From: Leeuwenhoekiella polynyae | Lineage (GTDB): Bacteria > Bacteroidota > Bacteroidia > Flavobacteriales > Flavobacteriaceae | Reading direction: 5' to 3' | NCBI RefSeq assembly: GCF_004104075.1 | Contig: NZ_QOVK01000002.1 | Coordinates: 310,001-374,000 of the forward strand | Length of the DNA: 64,000 bases | Part shown: positions 27,285 through 51,512 of the stretch, one piece after another | Layout: each line of letters starts with the position of its first letter | Position numbering within the stretch: position 1 is the stretch's first letter | Made by a program: the position numbers and the translations under genes | The notes under the pieces: model-generated | Told to the model about the DNA's origin: nothing | Database searches by the model: none | What the model saw: only the letters and a program-made list of their open reading frames with translations

Positions 27285-28238
27285 TTAAAAAAGCGCAGAT
27301 GCTATTGCTTTTACATTATCGCTTTTGCCCATGGAATAATAATGCAATACCGGCACACCGCCTTCCATAAGTTCTTTAGATTGCTGAATTGCCCACTCTA
27401 TACCTACCTGACGAACATCTGTATTACTTTTACACGACTCTACAGATTCTATCAACTCTTGCGGAAGATCTATCTTAAAAACCTGTGGTAACAATTGTAA
27501 GTGACGCTTAACAGCAATAGGCTTTATACCCGGAATAATAGGAATATCAATCCCTTCTGCACGGACTAAATCAACAAACTCAAAATATTTTTTATTGTCA
27601 AAAAACATTTGAGTTACAACATAGTCTGCACCAGCCTCAACTTTTTGAATCAAGCGTTTTAAGTCTGTTTTTAAAGAGGGAGCTTCTAAATGTTTTTCAG
27701 GATAGCCGGCAACACCTATACAAAAGTCTGAACAATCTGAGGTCTCTACCATACCATTCAGATAATGCCCTTTATTCATTTCGACTACTTGCTCTACAAG
27801 GCCTAAAGCGTATTCGTGACCTCCCGGAGTAGGCTTAAAATACTGCTCTTCTCGCATAGCATCACCTCTCAAAGCCATCAGATTATGAATACCCAAATAA
27901 TGGCAGTCTACAAGCATATATTCGGTTTCTTCCTTAGTAAAACCACCACACAATACGTGAGGCACCGTATCTACATTATACTTATGCTTTATAGAAGCAC
28001 AAATACCTATAGTACCCGGTCTCATCCGGGTTACTTTTTTATCTAACAACCCATCTTTTTCTATGTAAACAAATTCCTCTCGCGATGTAGTAACATCAAT
28101 AAATGGAGGTTTAAATTCCATCAAAGGGTCAATATTGTTATACAACTCCTGAATACTTTTCCCTTTTCTAGGCGGAATCAGCTCAAAAGAAAATAAAGTC
28201 TTACCGCTTGCTTGTTTTATGTGATCTGTAATTTTCAT
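27285..28238 (-). CDS. metF: Methylenetetrahydrofolate reductase
   Basis: 317 aa, a TIM-barrel flavoprotein that reduces 5,10-methylene-THF to 5-methyl-THF, the methyl donor for MetH. Visible blocks include FSFELIPPRKG, DVTTSREE, LCGGFTKEE, MALRGD and PIIPGIKP. It is 68 nt downstream of metH2 on the same strand, so it is expected to share the SAM-I-controlled transcript. Confidence 0.93.
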   Translation of the reverse strand: MKITDHIKQASGKTLFSFELIPPRKGKSIQELYNNIDPLMEFKPPFIDVTTSREEFVYIEKDGLLDKKVTRMRPGTIGICASIKHKYNVDTVPHVLCGGFTKEETEYMLVDCHYLGIHNLMALRGDAMREEQYFKPTPGGHEYALGLVEQVVEMNKGHYLNGMVETSDCSDFCIGVAGYPEKHLEAPSLKTDLKRLIQKVEAGADYVVTQMFFDNKKYFEFVDLVRAEGIDIPIIPGIKPIAVKRHLQLLPQVFKIDLPQELIESVESCKSNTDVRQVGIEWAIQQSKELMEGGVPVLHYYSMGKSDNVKAIASALF

Positions 28239-28306: not shown

Positions 28307-31033
28307 TTATTGGTCAGAAATATTAGGATTCAACCATTTTTCAGCCATGCGTACTTCTATTCCTTTACGATCTGCAAAATCGATCACCTGATCCATTTTG
28401 ATTTTTCCGAGGCCGAAATAACGCGCATCAGGATTAGCAAAATAATACCCACTTACCGAAGCGGCCGGCCACATGGCTAAACTTTCGGTAAGCTCTACAC
28501 CTATTTTTTCCTCAACGTCAAGTACATCCCAAATGGTTATTTTTTCTAAATGGTCTGGACACGCAGGATATCCCGGTGCAGGCCTTATTCCCTTATATTC
28601 TTCTTTGATCAATTCTAGGTTACTTAGCGATTCATCGTTTGCATAGCCCCAGTGTTCTTTTCTAACACGCTCGTGTAAATACTCAGCAAATGCTTCTGCA
28701 AAACGATCTGCGAGTGCTTTAACCATAATGCTGTTGTAATCGTCGTGATCTGCTTCATATTTTGCTGCTAACTCCTGCGTACCAAAACCTGCTGTCACAC
28801 AGAAGCACCCCATATAATCTTGCTTCCCACTTTCTTTAGGAGCTATAAAATCTGCTAATGCAATATTGGGCTTTCCCGATGCTTTTTTGCTTTGTTGACG
28901 CAGCGTTCTAAAAATGAACTTTTCAGTTTTATTTTCTAAACCTGAAGTAATGATCTCGATGTCATCGTCGTTTACTGTATTGGCTTCAAAGAGTCCAAAA
29001 ATCGCTTTTGCCGTTAATAATTTTTCATCTAAAATCTTTTTCAAAATCTCTTTAGCATCAGCAAATAACTCACGTGCTTGCTCGCCTACTACATCATCAT
29101 CTAATATATCTGGATACTTACCGTGTAAATCCCAACTGCGGAAAAACGGTGACCAATCTATATAATCAACAAGTTTATTCAGATCAAACTCTTCAATAAC
29201 CTGAACTCCTAATTCTTTAGGTTTAAACGCTTCAAATTTATTCCAATCTAATTTCCATTTATTCTCACGTGCTTGAGCCACGGTTAAGAAATCACGTTTC
29301 TTCCCTCGTGTTAAAAAGCGCTCTCTAAACAAAGCATAATCTTCTTTAATATCTGCTTTATATTTTAACCTTGAATCGGGATTGAGAAGATCTCCAACAA
29401 CCGTTACCGCCCGGGATGCATCATTTACATGAACAACTGCTTCCGGATATTCCGGATCAATTTTCACTGCGGTATGTGCCTTACTAGTGGTTGCACCACC
29501 TATAAGCAATGGAACGGTGAAATCTTGACGTTTCATTTCTTTAGCCAGAAAAACCATCTCATCAAGAGAAGGGGTTATGAGTCCGCTAAGACCTATAATA
29601 TCAACGTTGCGTTCTTTTGCAGTTGCAATAATTTTTTCCGGCGGAACCATAACTCCCATATCTATGATCTCATAGTTGTTACACGCCAAAACCACACTCA
29701 CTATATTTTTACCAATATCGTGCACATCTCCTTTTACGGTAGCCATTAGGACAAGATTGGATTTTGCCTTTTCCGACGCCGGTGGTGGGTTTTTCAGTTT
29801 TTCTTCTTCTATATATGGCAATAAATAAGCAACTGCTTTTTTCATCACCCGTGCCGATTTTACAACCTGTGGAAGGAACATTTTTCCATCTCCAAAAAGG
29901 TCACCCACCACGTTCATCCCAGTCATTAGATGACCTTCAATCACGTGTAATGGCTTTTCTGAAGCTAATCTTGCCTCTTCTACATCTTCTAAAATATAAG
30001 CATCAATACCTTTAACTAAAGCTCGTGTAATTCTATCTTGTAAAGGTTCTTCTCGCCAAGACAGGTCAACCGTTCTTTCTTTTGCATTACCTTTTACACT
30101 TTCGGCAAAATCCAGTAATCGCTCTGTTGCATCATCGCGACGATCAAGAATAACGTCTTCTACGTGCTCTAATAAATCTTTAGGAATATCATCATAAACC
30201 TCAAGCATCGTTGGGTTAACAATACCAATATTCATCCCAGCTTTAATAGCGTGGTATAAAAATACGGAGTGCATCGCTTCGCGCACCACATTATTTCCCC
30301 GGAAGCTAAAAGAAACATTACTTACTCCGCCACTTACATGTGCGTAGGGTAAATTCTCTTTCACCCATTTTGTAGCTCTAATAAAATCTATAGCATTGAG
30401 ACGATGCTCTTCCATACCGGTAGCAACCGGAAAAATATTCAAGTCAAAAATGATATCCTCCGGTGGGAATTTCACCTGATTTACGAGAATATCATAACTG
30501 CGTTTTGTAATCTCCAGACGACGCTCATAATTATCAGCCTGACCAACCTCATCAAATGCCATAACGATAACAGCAGCTCCGTATCGTTTTATCTTTTTAG
30601 CGTGGTCAATAAATTCGGCTTCGCCTTCTTTTAAACTAATGGAGTTCACCACACATTTACCCTGTACAACCTGCAAACCTGCCTCTATGATATCCCATTT
30701 AGAGCTGTCTATCATAATAGGTACTCTAGAAATATCTGGCTCTGCAGCAATGAGATTGAGAAAAGTAACCATCGCCTTTTTACCATCAATAAGACCATCG
30801 TCCATATTGATATCTATGATCTGGGCACCGCCCTCTACCTGATCCCGTGCAATGTCTAAGGCTTCATCAAATTTCTCTTCATTAATGAGTCTTAAAAATT
30901 TACGCGATCCAGCCACATTAGTACGTTCTCCTACGTTTACAAAATTGCTTTCTGGCGTAACTACTAACGGCTCTAAGCCACTCAATTTTAGCGGTCTTAT
31001 TTTTTTTGCTTTAGCTATTGCTTCTACACTCAT
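28307..31033 (-). CDS. metH: Methionine synthase, folate/cobalamin/activation half
   Basis: 908 aa. Domain order is the pterin-binding domain (about 25-290; [16 protein letters not shown]), the four-helix B12-binding cap, the cobalamin domain with axial His438 in [10 protein letters not shown], and the AdoMet-activation domain (about 590-900; [12 protein letters not shown]). Together with the separate homocysteine-binding protein encoded 9 nt upstream it makes a complete cobalamin-dependent methionine synthase. The split arrangement is common in Bacteroidota. The protein is cytoplasmic and depends on B12 supply. Confidence 0.94.
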
Positions 31034-31042
31034 CGTTCTGAT

Positions 31043-32068
31043 TTATATCGCTGTTTCAGCTTCATTAAGCTCAGGCAATGGCCTTGGTTCATAATCTTTC
31101 ACTAATTCTGCAATGGCGTGGATGTGTTCTGGAGTTGTACCACAACAGCCACCAATGATGTTGATCAGCTTTTTATCTAAATAGATTTTTATCTGAGCTG
31201 CCATCTCTTCTGCAGTCTCATCATATTCACCAAATGCGTTAGGCAATCCTGCGTTAGGATAAGCCGATACTGCAAAGTTTGATCTACTGGAAACAACTTC
31301 TAAATAGGGAGTTAGTTGCTCTGCTCCCAAAGCACAATTAAAACCTACAGAAAGTAAAGGCATATGCCCCACAGAGATCAAAAATGCCTCAGCTGTCTGG
31401 CCAGATAAGGTTCTTCCTGAAGCATCAGTAATGGTACCGCTCACCATCACAGGGATGTCTATATTGCGTTCTTCTTTTAGTTCTTCAATAGCAAAAAGTG
31501 CTGCTTTTGCATTCAGTGTATCAAAAATAGTTTCCACTAAAAGCATATCTACACCACCATCAATTAAGGCTTCTGCTTGTCGCTTGTAAGCTGCTCGCAG
31601 CTCATCAAAAGAAACCGCTCTAAAACCAGGATCATTTACATCTGGAGACATACTGGCAGTTTTGTTAGTAGGCCCCATTGCGCCAGCTACAAAACGTGGC
31701 TTTTCGGGTTCTTTTTCTGTAAATTCTTGCGCTACCTTTTTTGCTATTTTAGCAGACTCATAATTAAGTTCGTAAACAAACTCCTCCATCCCATAATCTG
31801 CCATAGCGATTGTAGTCCCACTAAAAGTATTTGTCTCTACAATATCTGCTCCCGCAGCAAAATATTTAGCATGAACATCTGCAATAGCTTCAGGTTGCGT
31901 AATACTCAACATATCGTTATTACCCTGCACAGGACTTGACCAATTTTTAAAGCGCTCTCCTCTAAAATCTTCTTCTGTGAATTTATAGCGTTGCAACATT
32001 GTTCCCATTGCACCATCTAAAACAAGAATACGCTTTCTTAAAGCTTTATGTATTTTATTTTGACTCAT
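31043..32068 (-). CDS. metH: Methionine synthase, homocysteine-binding half
   Basis: 341 aa, a Zn-dependent homocysteine S-methyltransferase barrel. It has LDGAMGTMLQRYKF at the start and the zinc cysteines in FNCALG and GGCCGTTPEH. It binds and activates homocysteine for methylation by the cobalamin half encoded next. It is the first gene of the metH1-metH2-metF unit, and a SAM-I riboswitch lies about 120 nt upstream of its ATG. Confidence 0.93.
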   Translation of the reverse strand: MSQNKIHKALRKRILVLDGAMGTMLQRYKFTEEDFRGERFKNWSSPVQGNNDMLSITQPEAIADVHAKYFAAGADIVETNTFSGTTIAMADYGMEEFVYELNYESAKIAKKVAQEFTEKEPEKPRFVAGAMGPTNKTASMSPDVNDPGFRAVSFDELRAAYKRQAEALIDGGVDMLLVETIFDTLNAKAALFAIEELKEERNIDIPVMVSGTITDASGRTLSGQTAEAFLISVGHMPLLSVGFNCALGAEQLTPYLEVVSSRSNFAVSAYPNAGLPNAFGEYDETAEEMAAQIKIYLDKKLINIIGGCCGTTPEHIHAIAELVKDYEPRPLPELNEAETAI

Positions 32069-32178: not shown

Positions 32179-32186
32179 GTTTTTAT

Positions 32187-32283
32187 GTTATCTATCTCAA
32201 AATCGAGTAGAATGTAGCACCTTCTCCAAGAGGAGGGTTGCTAAGGCTTCAACGGGTCTAATCCCTCTGCCTTTCTTGATAAC
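32187..32283 (-). promoter_or_regulatory. SAM-I (S-box) riboswitch of the metH operon
   Basis: Read on the minus strand, the element shows the S-box landmarks in order: P1 5' strand GTTATC, CAAGAAAGG, CAGAGGGATTAGACCC, GAAGCCTTAGCAACC, AAGGTGCTACATTCTA, and P1 3' strand GATAAC (pairing of 32278-32283 with 32187-32192). SAM binding is expected to lower expression of metH1-metH2-metF. The match is strong by eye. Confidence 0.95.
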
Positions 32284-32307
32284 CACATTAAAGAATGAAC
32301 TGAACTG

Positions 32308-44918: not shown

Positions 44919-47900
44919 CTAGTTATTCCGCTCTGCGAGTTTCAATATATCTCCAAAAACGCCCCGTGCAGTCACAGCTGCTCCTGCTCCGGCACCCTGA
45001 ATCACTAAGGGATTCTCTCCGTAGGATTCGGTGTAAATTTCAAAAATACTATCGCTGCCTTTTACCTGACCCAATGCCGAACTTTTAGAAACGGTAACCA
45101 GTTTCACTTCTAAAGTCCCTCCATCTTCCTGAGATAAATCGCCGTAAAGGTCGCCAACATAACGCAGAACTTCATCTTCTTTTAAGGCTTTTTTACGCGC
45201 TTCAAAAACCGAATCGAGCTCTTTTAGTCTTCCTAAAAAGTCTGATGCGGCTCCTTCCCGTAAATTTTCAGGAATGAGGCTTTGGATCTGCACATCACTA
45301 AACTCTTTGTGTAAGTCGAGTTCGCGAGCCAAAATCAACAATTTACGTCCCACATCGTTTCCGCCCAAATCTTCCCGCGGATCAGGCTCGGTAAAACCTT
45401 TATCAATCGCATCCTGCAAAACTTTTGAAAAATCGCGATCTTCTACCGAAAAAGTATTGAACAAGTAACTCAACGAACCGCTAAAAACGCCTTTGATACG
45501 GGTGATATTATCGCCCGAAAGATGCAACAAACGTATGGTATCTATCAGCGGAAGTCCCGCACCCACGTTGGTTTCATACAGGTAACGCTTGTTGTTTTCA
45601 TCTAAAACCCGACGCAATTTTTGATAAAAATCAAAACCTACCGTGTTGGCTATTTTATTAGAAGAAACCAGATCAAATCCGTTTTGCGCCAGTTCGATGT
45701 AATTCTCGATAAACGCAGCACTTGCCGTATTGTCAATCGCAATTAGATTTGCCAAATGATTAGCTTTCGCGAAAGCGATCACTTCTTTTACTCCGGCTTC
45801 TTTTGCCTGACTTTTAAAATCGGTTTTCCAGCTTTCTGAAACGCCGTTTTTATCAAACAAGACTTTTTTAGAATTTGCTACCGCGAAAATATTCAGCGCG
45901 ATTCCTTTACGTTCCTGTATGGTTTCGGCAGATGCTACGATCTGATCGATCAACGTACCCCCCACCAATCCATGACCGAAAATGGCAATATTTATTTTTT
46001 TGGCAATACCAAAAATTTCCCCGTGCACCACATTAAGAGCCTTGGTCAGTTGCGGTTTGCGCACCACCACACTCACGTTTTTTCCGGTAACCGTATTGTT
46101 GAACAACAACGGAACAATCCCGTTCTTGATGAGTTCGCTATAGGGTTTATGAAAACTGCTCAGATCCTGACCTATTATCGAAATCACCGCAACCTCATCA
46201 ATAATTTCGATGCGGTTAACATCCTGACTTTGGAAATCGGCTTCAAACTCAAACCGAAGGGCCGAAATAGCCTGTTGCGCCTGCTTGGCCTCGACAACCA
46301 AACCAATTCCCCGTTCAGAAGAACCCTGAGCAATAATGCTCACATTTACGCCGCTGTTTCCTAAAGCCCTAAAAATACGGGCATCCACCCCTACTTTTCC
46401 CAACAAACCGCGGCCTTCCAAATTGATCAACGCCATGTCGCTCAATACCGAAAGGGATTTGATGCCTTCCTGCTCGGTCTGTGCAGTGATCAGTGTTCCT
46501 GCATCATCAGCCTTAAACGTGTTAAGAATGCGTAGCGGAATATTCTTCTCAATCAACGGAATAATCGTCTTGGCGTGCAATACCGAAGTCCCAAAATTGG
46601 CCAGTTCGTTTGCCTCGCTATAGGTAAGACGTTCGATCTTTTGCGCATCGGGAACCAGGTCTGGATTCGCGGTGAAAATTCCGTCTACGTGCGTATAATT
46701 TTGCAATTCGCCGGCATCCAGATAATTGGCTAAAAGTGAAGCCGTGTAATTACTGCCATTACGCCCTAAAGTCGTGGTCTGGTTGTTATCATCACTCGCG
46801 ATAAAACCGGTCACGATGTTTACCGTCTCCCCATTATACTTTGTAAAATGCTTAACTACCTGCTCTTTGGAAAGCTTGTCATTGGGTTGTGCGTTGCCAA
46901 AGGTTCCATTGGTTTTTATAAGCTTACGCGAATCTGTAAACTGGGCTTTCACGCCTTGCTTTTGCAACAGATGGGTTACGGTTTTTACCGAAATCAATTC
47001 GCCATAAGACAAGATTTCATCTTTTACTTTCTTGCTATAATCACCAAGTAAGGCAACCCCATCAAAAAGACGCTTGAGTTCTGTGAATTCTTCGGAAAGA
47101 TCTACGTCAAAATCATTTTGCTGATACTTTTTAAACGCTTCAAACTGATGCTGAAACTCCCGCCCTGAAGCTGCAGCTTCCAGGATTGCTTCCAGCTCAT
47201 CGGTCGCACCACCTCGTGCCGAAAGTACCACCGCGATGCGCTCGCCATTTTCGACTTTAGTCTTAATGATATTTAAGACGGTATCGAGTCCGTTTCCGTT
47301 TGCCAGTGATTTTCCGCCGAATTTTAAAATTTTTAGCTTTGCGGTATCGGCTCTAAAGACCGGATACAGCAATTGCTCCAACTGTTCAAATTCAATTAAA
47401 AAAGCATCGTGCCCGTGTACCGAATGGATTTCGCCATAGGTTACATTATTCTTAACCTGCGCCAGTTGCTTGTAAGTCTCCCGGTTTTCAACAGGCGTAA
47501 AAAACAAATCTGAATCTACGCCCACGATGTGAATATTGGCTTCAACCTGACTCAAAATTTCATTAAAACCTTCGCGACCACGGGTAACATCAATGGTTTT
47601 AAGCAATTGGTTCATCAATTTATAGGCTGAAACCTGAAAGCGATCTTTCAATTTATGGCCGTGATGATCTAACCAACTCTCAACGTTGAAAATATTGAGA
47701 TCTTCATTAGTGCTTCGCTGAAATTTATTTTTAAACGATTCCGGCGTGCGGTAACACAACATCGCGTGCATACGCGCATCGTGAACCGGCTGTGAGGAAT
47801 TTTTTAAAATCTGCTCCTGAATCTGGCAATTGGCGATGAGCCAATCTGTAGATTTCCAGTCAGACGCTACGGGGATTAAATGCTGGGTGATCGCAGGTTG

Positions 47901-48302
47901 CAGCGCGACCATTTCCCAGGCGATACCACCACCCAATGAACCGCCAATAATGGCAAAGAGCTCATTGATTTTAAGTTCCTTTAATCCTTCTAAAAAAGCC
48001 CGTGCGACATCCTGCGCGACAAATTCTTTATAGTTTTCAATCAAAAAGCCGTCATAGCCGTTACCCGGAATATTAAACGAAAGAATACTGTACTTGCGCG
48101 TATCGATGCATTTATCATCGCCTATGAGTTCATTCCACCAGCCATCGGGACCGCTTACGTGCGAATTTCCCGTAAGGGCGTGATTGACTAAAATCACTGG
48201 AGCCGTGCCGAGTGGCTGACCAAAAGTCTCATAACTGAGCAACAGGTCAAGCTGAAATCCTGATTGAGTCTTAAATCCGGGAAGGTTAAGTTTGTGTAAC
48301 AT
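44919..48302 (-). CDS. Fused homoserine O-acetyltransferase, aspartokinase and homoserine dehydrogenase
   Basis: 1127 aa in one uninterrupted frame. Residues 1-320 are a MetX-type alpha/beta-hydrolase: Ser122 in GGSLGGG, Asp265 in GVDSDLFF and His298 in HGHDAF. Residues ~322-765 are an aspartokinase with KFGGKSLANG, GRNGSNYTAS and ACT domains. Residues ~768-1127 are a homoserine dehydrogenase (IAIFGHGLVGG, LGGNDVGRKLLILAREL). The chain would phosphorylate aspartate, reduce the semialdehyde to homoserine and acetylate it for MetY; aspartate-semialdehyde dehydrogenase is not included. metY is immediately upstream on the same strand, so the SAM-I element there probably controls it. Confidence 0.9.
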   Translation of the reverse strand: MLHKLNLPGFKTQSGFQLDLLLSYETFGQPLGTAPVILVNHALTGNSHVSGPDGWWNELIGDDKCIDTRKYSILSFNIPGNGYDGFLIENYKEFVAQDVARAFLEGLKELKINELFAIIGGSLGGGIAWEMVALQPAITQHLIPVASDWKSTDWLIANCQIQEQILKNSSQPVHDARMHAMLCYRTPESFKNKFQRSTNEDLNIFNVESWLDHHGHKLKDRFQVSAYKLMNQLLKTIDVTRGREGFNEILSQVEANIHIVGVDSDLFFTPVENRETYKQLAQVKNNVTYGEIHSVHGHDAFLIEFEQLEQLLYPVFRADTAKLKILKFGGKSLANGNGLDTVLNIIKTKVENGERIAVVLSARGGATDELEAILEAAASGREFQHQFEAFKKYQQNDFDVDLSEEFTELKRLFDGVALLGDYSKKVKDEILSYGELISVKTVTHLLQKQGVKAQFTDSRKLIKTNGTFGNAQPNDKLSKEQVVKHFTKYNGETVNIVTGFIASDDNNQTTTLGRNGSNYTASLLANYLDAGELQNYTHVDGIFTANPDLVPDAQKIERLTYSEANELANFGTSVLHAKTIIPLIEKNIPLRILNTFKADDAGTLITAQTEQEGIKSLSVLSDMALINLEGRGLLGKVGVDARIFRALGNSGVNVSIIAQGSSERGIGLVVEAKQAQQAISALRFEFEADFQSQDVNRIEIIDEVAVISIIGQDLSSFHKPYSELIKNGIVPLLFNNTVTGKNVSVVVRKPQLTKALNVVHGEIFGIAKKINIAIFGHGLVGGTLIDQIVASAETIQERKGIALNIFAVANSKKVLFDKNGVSESWKTDFKSQAKEAGVKEVIAFAKANHLANLIAIDNTASAAFIENYIELAQNGFDLVSSNKIANTVGFDFYQKLRRVLDENNKRYLYETNVGAGLPLIDTIRLLHLSGDNITRIKGVFSGSLSYLFNTFSVEDRDFSKVLQDAIDKGFTEPDPREDLGGNDVGRKLLILARELDLHKEFSDVQIQSLIPENLREGAASDFLGRLKELDSVFEARKKALKEDEVLRYVGDLYGDLSQEDGGTLEVKLVTVSKSSALGQVKGSDSIFEIYTESYGENPLVIQGAGAGAAVTARGVFGDILKLAERNN

Positions 48303-48433: not shown

Positions 48434-49726
48434 TTAAGCAGTTTCGGTTTGTTTAATCTCCGCAAATGCTGCTTTTAAATCATTTTTTAAATCCTCAATA
48501 TCCTCAAGACCAACTGAAAGACGAATCAAATCTTTAGTCACGCCGGTAGATTCCTGAGCATCATCAGGTAATTGCTGATGAGTCGTACTCGCAGGGTGGA
48601 TAATCAAAGACTTGGTGTCGCCAATATTTGCCAAAAGCGAAAAGATTTCGGTTTTATCGGCTACGGTTTTTGCACTTTCAAAGCCACTTTTAAGACCAAA
48701 GGTCACAATACCGCTTTGTCCTTTTGGAAGGTATTTTTTAGCTAAATCATTATACTTACTGCTCGCAAGTCCGGGATAATTTACCCAGGTAACTTCGGGC
48801 TGTGCTTCCAGCCATTCCGCCAGAGCCAAAGCATTTTCGCTGTGCTGCTTGATACGAATAGATAAAGTCTCTAAGCCCTGAATGATCTGAAACGCGTTAA
48901 ACGGACTCAATGCCGCACCGTGATCGCGCAATCCTTCAACCCGCACTTTAGCGATAAACGCTGCAGGCCCCAAAGCTTCGTGGTATACCAGACCATGATA
49001 TCCGGCAGAAGGCTCGGTAAACTCCGGAAACTTTCCGCTAGACCAGTCAAAAGTACCAGCGTCAATGATTGCTCCTCCTAAAGAGGTTCCGTTACCGTTG
49101 ATGTATTTGGTCAACGAATGAATTACAATATTAGCCCCGTGCGCAATGGGATTTAGCAAAGCCGGAGAAGCCACCGTATTATCAACGATTAATGGAATGC
49201 GGCTCTCTTTCGCGACTGCGGAAATAGCTTCCAAGTCCAAAACATCAAGCTTTGGATTACCCAAAGATTCTACAAAAACAGCGCGTGTATTTTCCTGAAT
49301 GGCATCTTTAAAATTGGATACCTCATCCGGATTTACAAAAGTTGTAGTTATGCCAAATCGCGGAAGCGTTACGCTCAGCAAATTGTAAGTACCACCATAC
49401 AAACTGCTGGAAGCCACAATATGATCGCCCTGCTTTAAAAGCGTAAGTAAAGCTGTATTAATTGCAGCCGTACCCGAAGCGGTAACCACCGCACCAATAC
49501 CGCCTTCAATAGCTGCAAGGCGTTGCTCCAACACATCATTAGTCGGGTTATTTAAGCGCGTGTATATGTAACCCGGCTGTGAAAGGTTGAATAAACCTGC
49601 CGCATGGTCTGAATCGTTAAAAACGTAACTGGTGGTTTGATAAATAGGCACCGCACGGGTACCGCCATTTACTGTTGTGTCGTGACCCGCGTGTAACGCC
49701 TGAGTCGAAAATTTTTGTGCACTCAT
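48434..49726 (-). CDS. metY: O-acetylhomoserine sulfhydrylase
   Basis: 430 aa, the typical length for the OAH (aminocarboxypropyl)transferase type. Blocks visible are ALHAGHDTTVNGGTRAVPIYQ, GYIYTRLNNPTND, VDNTVASPALLNP and the PLP lysine in HSLTKYINGNGTSLGG. It makes homocysteine from O-acetylhomoserine and sulfide, matching the MetX activity of the next gene. A SAM-I riboswitch lies 123 nt upstream. Confidence 0.92.
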   Translation of the reverse strand: MSAQKFSTQALHAGHDTTVNGGTRAVPIYQTTSYVFNDSDHAAGLFNLSQPGYIYTRLNNPTNDVLEQRLAAIEGGIGAVVTASGTAAINTALLTLLKQGDHIVASSSLYGGTYNLLSVTLPRFGITTTFVNPDEVSNFKDAIQENTRAVFVESLGNPKLDVLDLEAISAVAKESRIPLIVDNTVASPALLNPIAHGANIVIHSLTKYINGNGTSLGGAIIDAGTFDWSSGKFPEFTEPSAGYHGLVYHEALGPAAFIAKVRVEGLRDHGAALSPFNAFQIIQGLETLSIRIKQHSENALALAEWLEAQPEVTWVNYPGLASSKYNDLAKKYLPKGQSGIVTFGLKSGFESAKTVADKTEIFSLLANIGDTKSLIIHPASTTHQQLPDDAQESTGVTKDLIRLSVGLEDIEDLKNDLKAAFAEIKQTETA

Positions 49727-49820
49727 TTTTCTGTTTTTTTGAGTTAAAACTAAATTAAACCCAAAGTCTGCTGCCGGTAACCGGCATTCGTTACAAGAAA
49801 AATGTTATTAAGAATCATAA

Positions 49821-49843
49821 AGTCATTTAAGAAAAAAATGACT
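49821..49843 (-). terminator. Hairpin in the metY SAM-I expression platform
   Basis: AGTCATTT pairs with AAATGACT over a 7-nt loop, 5 nt downstream of the riboswitch P1 3' strand on the minus strand. The following TTATG is only weakly T-rich. It may be a terminator or a sequestering hairpin. Confidence 0.5.
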
Positions 49844-49848
49844 CGTTA

Positions 49849-49952
49849 GTTATCTATCATCAGCTAAGCTGTTGTAGAATGTAGCACCTTCATCCCGGGG
49901 GAAGGGTTGCTAAGGCTTCACAGGGTCTAATCCCTCCGCCTTTCTTGATAAC
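49849..49952 (-). promoter_or_regulatory. SAM-I (S-box) riboswitch of metY
   Basis: On the minus strand: P1 GTTATC, CAAGAAAGG, CGGAGGGATTAGACCC, GAAGCCTTAGCAACC, AAGGTGCTACATTCTA, and P1 3' strand GATAAC (49947-49952 pairing with 49849-49854). It shares its core almost base for base with the metH element. It should shut metY and the downstream MetX-AK-HSD gene when SAM is plentiful. Confidence 0.95.
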
Positions 49953-49982
49953 ATTTCAGTAAGTATGTGAACTTTGTGAGCA

Positions 49983-50015
49983 CAAATATTGCAAAACGTT
50001 TTAGAACTATGCAAA
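49983..50015 (-). promoter_or_regulatory. Candidate promoter of the metY transcript
   Basis: Minus strand: TTTG (50015-50012), 21 nt, then AATATTTG (49990-49983), one mismatch from TAnnTTTG. The -7 region is contained in a 15-mer identical to that in front of the metH riboswitch. Confidence 0.6.
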
Positions 50016-50070
50016 CAAAATCGGTTTATTTTTATCAAATCATAAAATATCATAAGATTTTAAATCCTGT

Positions 50071-50100
50071 TTTGTAATACCTTCTAAATTTATACATTTG
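50071..50100 (+). promoter_or_regulatory. Candidate promoter of metK
   Basis: TTTG (50071-50074), an 18-nt spacer and TACATTTG (50093-50100), an exact -7 match. The transcript would start at about the first base of the SAM-II element. Confidence 0.65.
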
Positions 50101-50104
50101 CCAG

Positions 50105-50180
50105 CCTAAAGAGGAAAGATTTGACTGATTGCAACCTCTTATGCCGATTGATTTTGGCGTAAAAAATGCTAAAGGCAGTA
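50105..50180 (+). promoter_or_regulatory. SAM-II (SAM_alpha) riboswitch of metK
   Basis: The plus strand shows the SAM-II landmarks: P1 AAGAGG (50109-50114) pairing with CCTCTT (50135-50140), the loop GATTTGACTGATTGCAA, and the A-rich segment ending TAAAAAATGCTAAAGGC (near 50160-50176) that forms the pseudoknot. An extra small hairpin (GCC/GGC, 50143-50158) sits in the variable loop. It ends about 80 nt before the metK ATG. Assigned by comparison with the remembered SAM-II consensus. Confidence 0.85.
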
Positions 50181-50258
50181 ACACACTACCATTTTCATTG
50201 TATTTGTCAAATCGTTCTTCGACGTTTAATCCCAGTTACGGGAATAAAAAAATGCTTA

Positions 50259-51512
50259 ATGGCTTATTTATTTACCTCAGAAAGTGTGTCTGAAGGACAC
50301 CCTGATAAAATCGCTGATCAAATCAGCGATACCTTACTTGATAATTTCCTAGCTTTTGACCCGGAGTCTAAAGTAGCTTGTGAAACCCTTGTTACTACCG
50401 GACAAGTTGTACTAGCCGGAGAAGTAAAAAGCGACACGTACATTGATGTTCAAAACATTGCGCGGGGTGTGATCAATGACATAGGCTATACCAAAGGGGC
50501 CTACCAATTTAGCGGTGACAGCTGCGGGGTAATCTCTTTGATTCATGAGCAATCGCAAGATATCAATCAGGGTGTGGATCGCGCTTCAAAAGAAGAGCAA
50601 GGTGCCGGTGATCAGGGAATGATGTTTGGCTATGCAACTAAAGAAACTGAAAATTATATGCCGCTTGCGCTAGACATTTCGCATCGCATTATGATCGAAC
50701 TGGCTAAACTGCGTCGCGAAGAAAAAGATATTCCATATTTACGTCCAGATGCAAAAGCTCAGGTAACTATTGAATATTCTGATGATAACATTCCGCAGAA
50801 AATTGTAGCAATCGTAGTCTCTACTCAGCACGACGAATTTGATGAAGATGAAAAAATGCTGGCTAAAATCAAGAAAGATATTATTTCGATATTGATTCCG
50901 CGTGTAAAAGCGGGGTTAACAGATGATTTAGCCAAACTTTTTAACGACGATATTACCTATCATATCAACCCAACCGGAAAGTTTGTAATTGGCGGTCCTC
51001 ACGGAGATGCAGGTCTTACCGGTCGCAAGATTATTGTAGACACGTATGGCGGTAAAGGTGCTCACGGTGGTGGTGCATTCTCAGGTAAAGACCCTAGTAA
51101 GGTAGACCGTTCTGCAGCCTATGCGGCACGTCATATTGCAAAGAATCTGGTTGCAGCCGGTGTGGCAGACGAAGTTTTGGTACAGGTATCCTATGCGATC
51201 GGTGTAGTAGAACCTACTTCCATTTTTGTTGATACGTACGGGACTAAAAAAGTAGACCTCAGCAACGGCGAGATCGCAACAAAAGTGCGTGAGCTTTTTG
51301 ACATGCGCCCCGCAGCGATTGAAGAACGCTTAAAATTGCGCAACCCTATTTATAGAGAAACTGCAGCTTACGGTCATATGGGTAAAGATCCACAAGTGAT
51401 CACTAAAGTTTTTGAAAGTCCGTATAGTGGTAAAATCACCAAGGAAGTTGAATTATTCACTTGGGAAAAACTAGATTATGTTGATAAAGTAAAAGAAACT
51501 TTTAACTTATAG
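50259..51512 (+). CDS. metK: S-adenosylmethionine synthetase
   Basis: The start is the ATG at 50259 ([17 protein letters not shown]), giving 417 aa. An in-frame ATG at 50166 falls inside the riboswitch and adds a non-family leader. Signature sequences are [42 protein letters not shown] and [16 protein letters not shown]. It makes SAM from methionine and ATP, and is the only plus-strand gene of the methionine block. A clear terminator follows. Confidence 0.96.

Follow-up and report, generated by a model that had tools for sequence, protein, structure and literature searches.

Divergent SAM-I and SAM-II riboswitches between a metY-like gene and metK in Leeuwenhoekiella polynyae, with a candidate anti-aptamer strand in the metK leader

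Why would a bacterium place two structurally unrelated RNA sensors of one metabolite in a single intergenic region? This question is raised by Leeuwenhoekiella polynyae, a member of the Flavobacteriaceae, in which an S-adenosylmethionine (SAM)-I riboswitch and a SAM-II riboswitch stand between two divergent genes, a metY-like gene and metK, which encodes SAM synthetase. Both lie in the 64,000-nucleotide (nt) stretch that we analyzed, positions 310,001 to 374,000 of contig NZ_QOVK01000002.1, hereafter called the window; coordinates at this locus are counted from its first letter. The best explanation, which we consider fairly probable, is a divergent cassette with two SAM feedback switches and an anti-aptamer strand in the metK leader. 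The parts are known. The arrangement, the division of labor between the classes and the account of the metK leader are new so far as the literature was searched, no report of the divergent arrangement, the class partition or the leader switch having been found in the open-licence literature of PubMed Central.

The original prediction had placed an S-box (SAM-I) element on the minus-strand metY transcript and a SAM-II pseudoknot on the plus-strand metK transcript, about 150 bp apart. Both assignments held. RF00162 was matched over positions 1-108 of 108, with a score above the curated cut-off (80.0 versus 44.4 bits), and RF01726 over positions 1-60 of 60, also passing its curated cut-off; TIGR01326 and TIGR01034 identified the two genes (Table 1). 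The elements are on opposite strands with 150 nt between them (49955-50104), and the metY-like gene begins 120 nt downstream of the SAM-I aptamer. In the whole window, three cmscan matches exceeded the gathering thresholds, two to SAM-I and one to SAM-II, and the whole genome likewise holds two SAM-I (RF00162), one SAM-II (RF01726) and no more of either family. A sensitive scan of 49600-50400 gave no further credible Rfam match. The SAM-II family had been expected to be RF00521 (SAM_alpha, the SAM-II of Proteobacteria), and the lack of such a match had been named as a reason to abandon the element. Indeed, RF00521 gave zero matches in 49600-50400 even at E <= 10, but this is immaterial, since RF01726, the correct model, matches and the helix is conserved.

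We analyzed the SAM-II fold in 181 loci drawn from 239 matches in the family, a set that is not random and was in part chosen as already near a SAM-I. The four P1 core pairs were standard in all 179 parsed loci (two were unparsed), and two of the four show compensatory changes. The single pseudoknot (P2) pair that was counted was standard in 172 of 178 parsed loci (three unparsed), as 161 A-T, 7 G-T, 3 T-A and 1 G-C. The AAGAGG/CCTCTT helix and the counted pseudoknot pair are thus retained in homologs, and the RF01726 element has both the P1 and the loop-to-3'-strand pairs of an H-type pseudoknot. Read by eye, the loop insert ranges from none to more than 70 nt across genera and is often hairpin-like. 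The same aptamer model, to which the window element is a full-length match, was listed under the name SAM-II long loops as a riboswitch for Bacteroidetes and marine sequences (Weinberg 2010; PMC2864571). The passages available from that paper are silent on metK use in Flavobacteriaceae, on co-occurrence with SAM-I and on a leader switch, and its SAM-II details are in an additional file.

The divergent layout recurs in relatives. A SAM-I was divergent to the SAM-II at 23 of the 181 loci, every one at metK, a proportion that somewhat overstates the rate because some loci were picked for known SAM-I proximity. Rescanning with Rfam confirmed the pair in 11 of 11 relatives rechecked (of 22). The gaps ranged from 126 to 679 nt. 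Nine fell within 126-129 nt, and at these nine loci the gene behind SAM-I, taken as the best-scoring match at that place, was metY, metH or another pyridoxal phosphate enzyme. Among 80 metK loci from named records, 20 were passed through cmscan; SAM-II was found in 16 and a divergent pair within 230 nt in three (L275, L292 and L293, the last from Polaribacter sp. Hel1_85). Flagellimonas flava, Mesonia and Euzebyella are among the best-matching metK relatives with a name, in keeping with a place in Flavobacteriaceae. In one further locus (L290, Flavobacterium hibisci), a Flavo-1 small RNA (RF01705; 3881-3959) lies 132 nt downstream of the metK match.

Both classes in one genome are the rule in Flavobacteriaceae. 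Among 249 genomes of the family, RF01726 was found in 235 (228 above cut-off), RF00162 in 199 and both in 193; the family scans listed 150 matches for each. Six SAM-I genomes of this set had no SAM-II match, and three of these (G048, G066, G151) had no metK match either. In a phylum sample of 296 genomes, family members included, SAM-II was present in 45 and SAM-I in 247, and 42 of the 45 SAM-II genomes also held SAM-I, the exceptions being G467, G475 and the weak match G396. A passage of Barrick and Breaker (2007; PMC2258182) states that SAM-I and SAM-II had not been found together in any one species; this no longer holds. The claim of two unrelated classes at one locus was borne out, although the original prediction made no mention that two-class genomes are the family rule and that the layout recurs. 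In the 14 genomes without an RF01726 match, metK was found in eight, two of these matches being incomplete (G165, G170), and the remaining six are uninformative on the leader. Of six such metK leaders read by eye, five had no SAM-II and one (L263) an apparently decayed SAM-II. The L263 leader keeps an intact GTCAAATC strand, the motif described below.

The two classes are largely divided between two steps of the pathway: in the loci examined, SAM-I stands mostly at methionine synthesis and SAM-II at SAM synthesis. SAM-II is followed by metK in 174 of the 181 loci, by metY in two, by metH in one and by none of the nine query proteins in four. The nearest match after SAM-I (51 loci, mostly top-scoring SAM-I matches, with nine window proteins as queries) was metH in 27, metY-like in 16, metX-thrA-like in five, metZ-like in one and OsmC-like in two. 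A methionine gene was thus nearest in 49 of the 51, six of these and both OsmC-like matches having less than 50% identity, and SAM-I preceded metK in none of this set. SAM-I commonly stands before methionine synthesis genes, and the window element is likewise a full-length match before such a gene; unlike in the usual setting, it faces away from a SAM-II. The SAM-II elements before metY (L021, L225) or metH (L141) belong to G004, G239 and G055, respectively. G004 and G055 have no SAM-I match, G239 is not among the matched genomes listed, and by eye the metK leaders of all three lack SAM-II, as if one class had been substituted for the other. The four loci outside the query set (L222, L223, L224 and L226; SAM-II at 1501-1561 or 701-759) are strong RF01726 matches in small genomes, and the gene that follows encodes either a DUF6580 membrane protein or a QueF-like one (Pfam on one each). 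As a guess, the DUF6580 protein might function as a transporter connected with SAM or queuosine.

In many leaders, the segment from the aptamer to the metK start contains GTCAAATC, or a longer stretch, which is the reverse complement of the SAM-II core. In the window, this strand supplies 14 of the 19 pairs of the best leader-aptamer duplex, whose energy is -20.9 kcal/mol; 2000 shuffles of the leader gave -12.5 (p 0.003). The same 14 pairs are present in the minimum free energy structure of the free fold, and the unconstrained metK leader fold with this pairing is moderately stable (z -2.42; 6 of 200 shuffles as good). Across loci, the longest exact leader-aptamer match reached at least 8 nt in 63.5% of 159 compared to 5.9% of dinucleotide shuffles, and the duplex energy gave p <= 0.05 in 105 of 157 metK leaders (88 of 114 with the standard core). 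Exact match, core-leader association, free fold and AUG were counted on 159 loci; the permutation, local hairpin and duplex tests used 157, leaving out L007 and L011, whose leaders were parsed to 5 and 0 nt. Aptamers paired better with their own leaders than with permuted ones (z -11), also within one core (z -6.8) and among variant cores (z -5.6), these z values and the Fisher p values being inflated by relatedness. GTCAAAT occurs in the leaders of 71 of 116 aptamers with the GATTTGACTG core, which is the subtype of the window, and of 2 of 43 others. In the 73 loci holding both strands, the AUUUGAC/GUCAAAU pairing had a mean probability of 0.88 in the free fold. Within the discovery set, the candidate anti-aptamer strand has good support in the window's subtype; in the other subtype its support is weak.

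In the mechanism that we propose, the two leaders respond alike to high SAM: the metY transcript would adopt its SAM-I aptamer fold, the metK transcript its SAM-II pseudoknot, and expression of each gene would fall. The end product SAM would in this way shut methionine synthesis and SAM synthesis, each via a different RNA class. When SAM is absent, the leader strand GTCAAATC and its neighbors would pair with the SAM-II core, ligand binding and anti-aptamer pairing presumably being mutually exclusive. We infer SAM binding, the OFF direction and mutual exclusion in the cell from sequence. In the unconstrained fold of the metY leader, the first bases and the P1 5' strand are predicted to pair downstream of the aptamer (z -3.66), and this is plausibly the SAM-free form.

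Several results weigh against this account of metK. Among variant cores of the discovery set, the duplex reached p <= 0.05 in 17 of 43 loci. In held-out loci, the exact-match test gave p <= 0.05 in 3 of the 19 parsed (3 of 22 were unparsed); none of the 19 has the GATTTGACTG core, the held-out set being of the other subtype. Among phylogenetically independent pairs, an average of 3.3 of 6 were concordant and none was discordant, which is not significant. Could base composition or common descent account for the complementarity? Relatedness inflates the counts and the held-out loci are weak, but the complementarity exceeds that of dinucleotide shuffles and of permuted partners, even within one-core aptamers, and we regard this explanation as improbable. 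At the output step, start-codon accessibility differed little between the free and the aptamer-blocked fold (0.60 and 0.56), and a local hairpin on the pseudoknot strand had p 0.38 in the window and p <= 0.05 in 32 of 157 loci. A consensus scan of 49650-50320 for intrinsic terminators (a G+C-rich stem-loop and a T run), which would miss an AT-rich terminator, found 0 compared to 0.7 in shuffles; a 9-bp AT-rich hairpin is predicted in the SAM-I leader. Base pairing between the metK leader and early codons of the gene was rejected as a general mechanism, being no stronger than with other coding windows or permuted partners in 53 loci (every third of the 157), and it does appear in the window's modeled SAM-bound fold. 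Because the scan gave no terminator, Rho-dependent termination or leader-controlled translation would be slightly favored over intrinsic termination in the window. Rho-dependent control, a candidate by analogy, is known from other cases. Alternatively, SAM-II might regulate translation in every one of these leaders by means of a helix that covers the stretch just 5' of the start. In 11 loci from small genomes (1.3-2.7 Mb), such a helix is predicted between the 22 nt that precede the ATG and sequence 3' of the pseudoknot, with 8-13 pairs in ten of the 11 and differing partners, and permuted partners equaled their own pairs in 1 of 2000 trials. The strand of this helix can alternatively pair with the pseudoknot strand (L005 free fold). 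These 11 loci, for which the predicted helix points to translational control, were, however, chosen post hoc by a one-strand pattern, and the other 146, window included, showed no such signal (z -0.2). The helix was thus rejected as a family-wide output, being confined to the 11, and action on translation in all leaders appears doubtful. It is very improbable that the AUG at 50166-50168, in the SAM-II 3' strand, is a start giving an N-terminal MetK extension or a SAM-locked small upstream open reading frame (ORF). In the window, no stop separates this AUG from metK, whose frame it shares, and an AUG stands at that place in 139 of 159 leaders; moreover, passages on Sinorhizobium meliloti metA (PMC9373788) describe a SAM-II leader with a comparable AUG1/AUG2 pair, in which one AUG lies close to the aptamer and the start in use follows 74 nt downstream. 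However, that SAM-II controls metA, not metK, and the frame of the window AUG is not conserved: it is in frame and open in just 6 of 159 leaders, window included, for which it was rejected as the metK start. Its U is accounted for by pairing with a loop A, three relatives having A there and U in the loop.

Is the layout itself more than an ordinary neighborhood, in which methionine genes cluster and two standalone riboswitches come to lie side by side incidentally? A metK tree built with FastTree from 173 rows (23 divergent) implies 19 changes of state in the layout. It may have been repeatedly gained or lost, or the tree may be poorly resolved by the short alignment; taken at face value, this and the modest share of divergent loci suggest a layout easily gained or lost. 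Furthermore, SAM-I follows metK on the same strand in at least seven loci (flank lengths differ). On the other hand, the nine nearly constant gaps despite differing genes behind SAM-I, together with the conservation, across the 15 divergent loci that were aligned, of the intergenic DNA surrounding the two promoter-like sites, suggest a preserved cassette. We consider the incidental reading evenly balanced between true and false. A further possibility, raised in the original prediction, is a homeostat with two thresholds, in which SAM-I and SAM-II would differ in affinity and shut the two syntheses at different SAM levels. The partition of the classes between two pathway steps would fit, but SAM-II before metY or metH in genomes without a listed SAM-I implies that the classes seem exchangeable over evolution. 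Different thresholds are a plausible and attractive idea, though on balance rather unlikely. The closest known case that we found is the bhmT leader of Candidatus Pelagibacter ubique, where, according to the passages seen of PMC2704228, SAM-II and SAM-V share one intergenic region, as do the two classes in the window. There, both aptamers are on one strand before one gene and have a similar overall pseudoknot; the window pair differs in its opposite strands, two genes and unrelated folds.

Plausible promoters had been proposed before both elements. They were judged against TAnnTTTG, which we take to be the promoter consensus, in an alignment that took in 15 of the 23 divergent loci (21 printed). 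On the plus side, the proposal stood, TAnnTTTG being present by eye in 15 of 15 loci. On the minus side, a CAAA-centered box is conserved but less canonical, its first letters deviating from the consensus, in the window too. A sigma-70 scan gave nothing above chance. The stretch from the minus-strand promoter-like site to SAM-I (about 49948-49985) is strongly conserved in relatives, and the predicted fold has some of its bases paired with sequence 3' of the aptamer.

Table 1. Coordinates of the features in the window
Feature	Position	Strand	Evidence or remark
SAM-I (S-box) aptamer, RF00162	49847..49954	minus	cmscan 80.0 bits, E 3.2e-17, model full length
metY-like O-acetylhomoserine sulfhydrylase gene	48434..49726	minus	ORF; TIGR01326 636 bits (> cut-off); PF01053
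SAM-II long-loop aptamer, RF01726	50105..50183	plus	cmscan 57.7 bits, cut-off 44, E 1.8e-08
SAM-II P1 helix AAGAGG/CCTCTT	50109-50114/50135-50140	plus	
SAM-II core GATTTGAC	50118-50125	plus	
SAM-II loop-insert hairpin	about 50141-50160	plus	
SAM-II pseudoknot 3' strand	50167-50179	plus	
Candidate anti-aptamer strand GTCAAATC-G-TTCTTC	50206..50220	plus	complementary to 50111-50125: 14 pairs (one G-U), one mismatch
Predicted hairpin TTTA.TCCC/GGGA.TAAA	50225..50248	plus	shortly 5' of metK start; fold only, both modeled states
metK, methionine adenosyltransferase (SAM synthetase)	50259..51512	plus	ATG 50259; TIGR01034 508 bits (> cut-off); Pfam N, M, C domains
Promoter-like elements TTTG, TACATTTG	50071..50100 (50071-50074, 50093-50100)	plus	end 4 nt before SAM-II match
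Promoter-like elements, -7-like CAAATATT, -33-like CAAA (plus-strand letters)	49983..50015 (49983-49990, 50012-50015)	minus	
Methionine synthase ORFs (341 and 908 aa)	31043-32068, 28307-31033	minus	after second SAM-I
metF	27285-28238	minus	after second SAM-I

The second SAM-I of the window (32185-32285, minus strand, 79.1 bits) precedes metF and a methionine synthase gene that is divided between two ORFs. Additionally, a single 1127-aa ORF at 44919-48302 (minus strand) fuses a MetX-like homoserine O-acetyltransferase region with an aspartokinase-homoserine dehydrogenase.

At its broadest, the sequence evidence would allow a family-wide homeostat, in which SAM-I would govern methionine synthesis and SAM-II the synthesis of SAM, each class tuned to its own SAM level. 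The metK switch would need neither a Shine-Dalgarno sequence nor a terminator, release of the anti-aptamer strand upon SAM binding being read by Rho or the initiating ribosome, and SAM-II would replace lost SAM-I at its genes. We offer this combined view as speculative, and unlikely in its entirety. The natural pairs at single loci nevertheless allow two unrelated RNA solutions to one ligand to be compared in the same cell, and the split of the classes between pathway steps makes the reason for having two sensor classes testable. The putative leader switch may serve as a model for riboswitch output in bacteria that probably initiate translation mostly without Shine-Dalgarno pairing.
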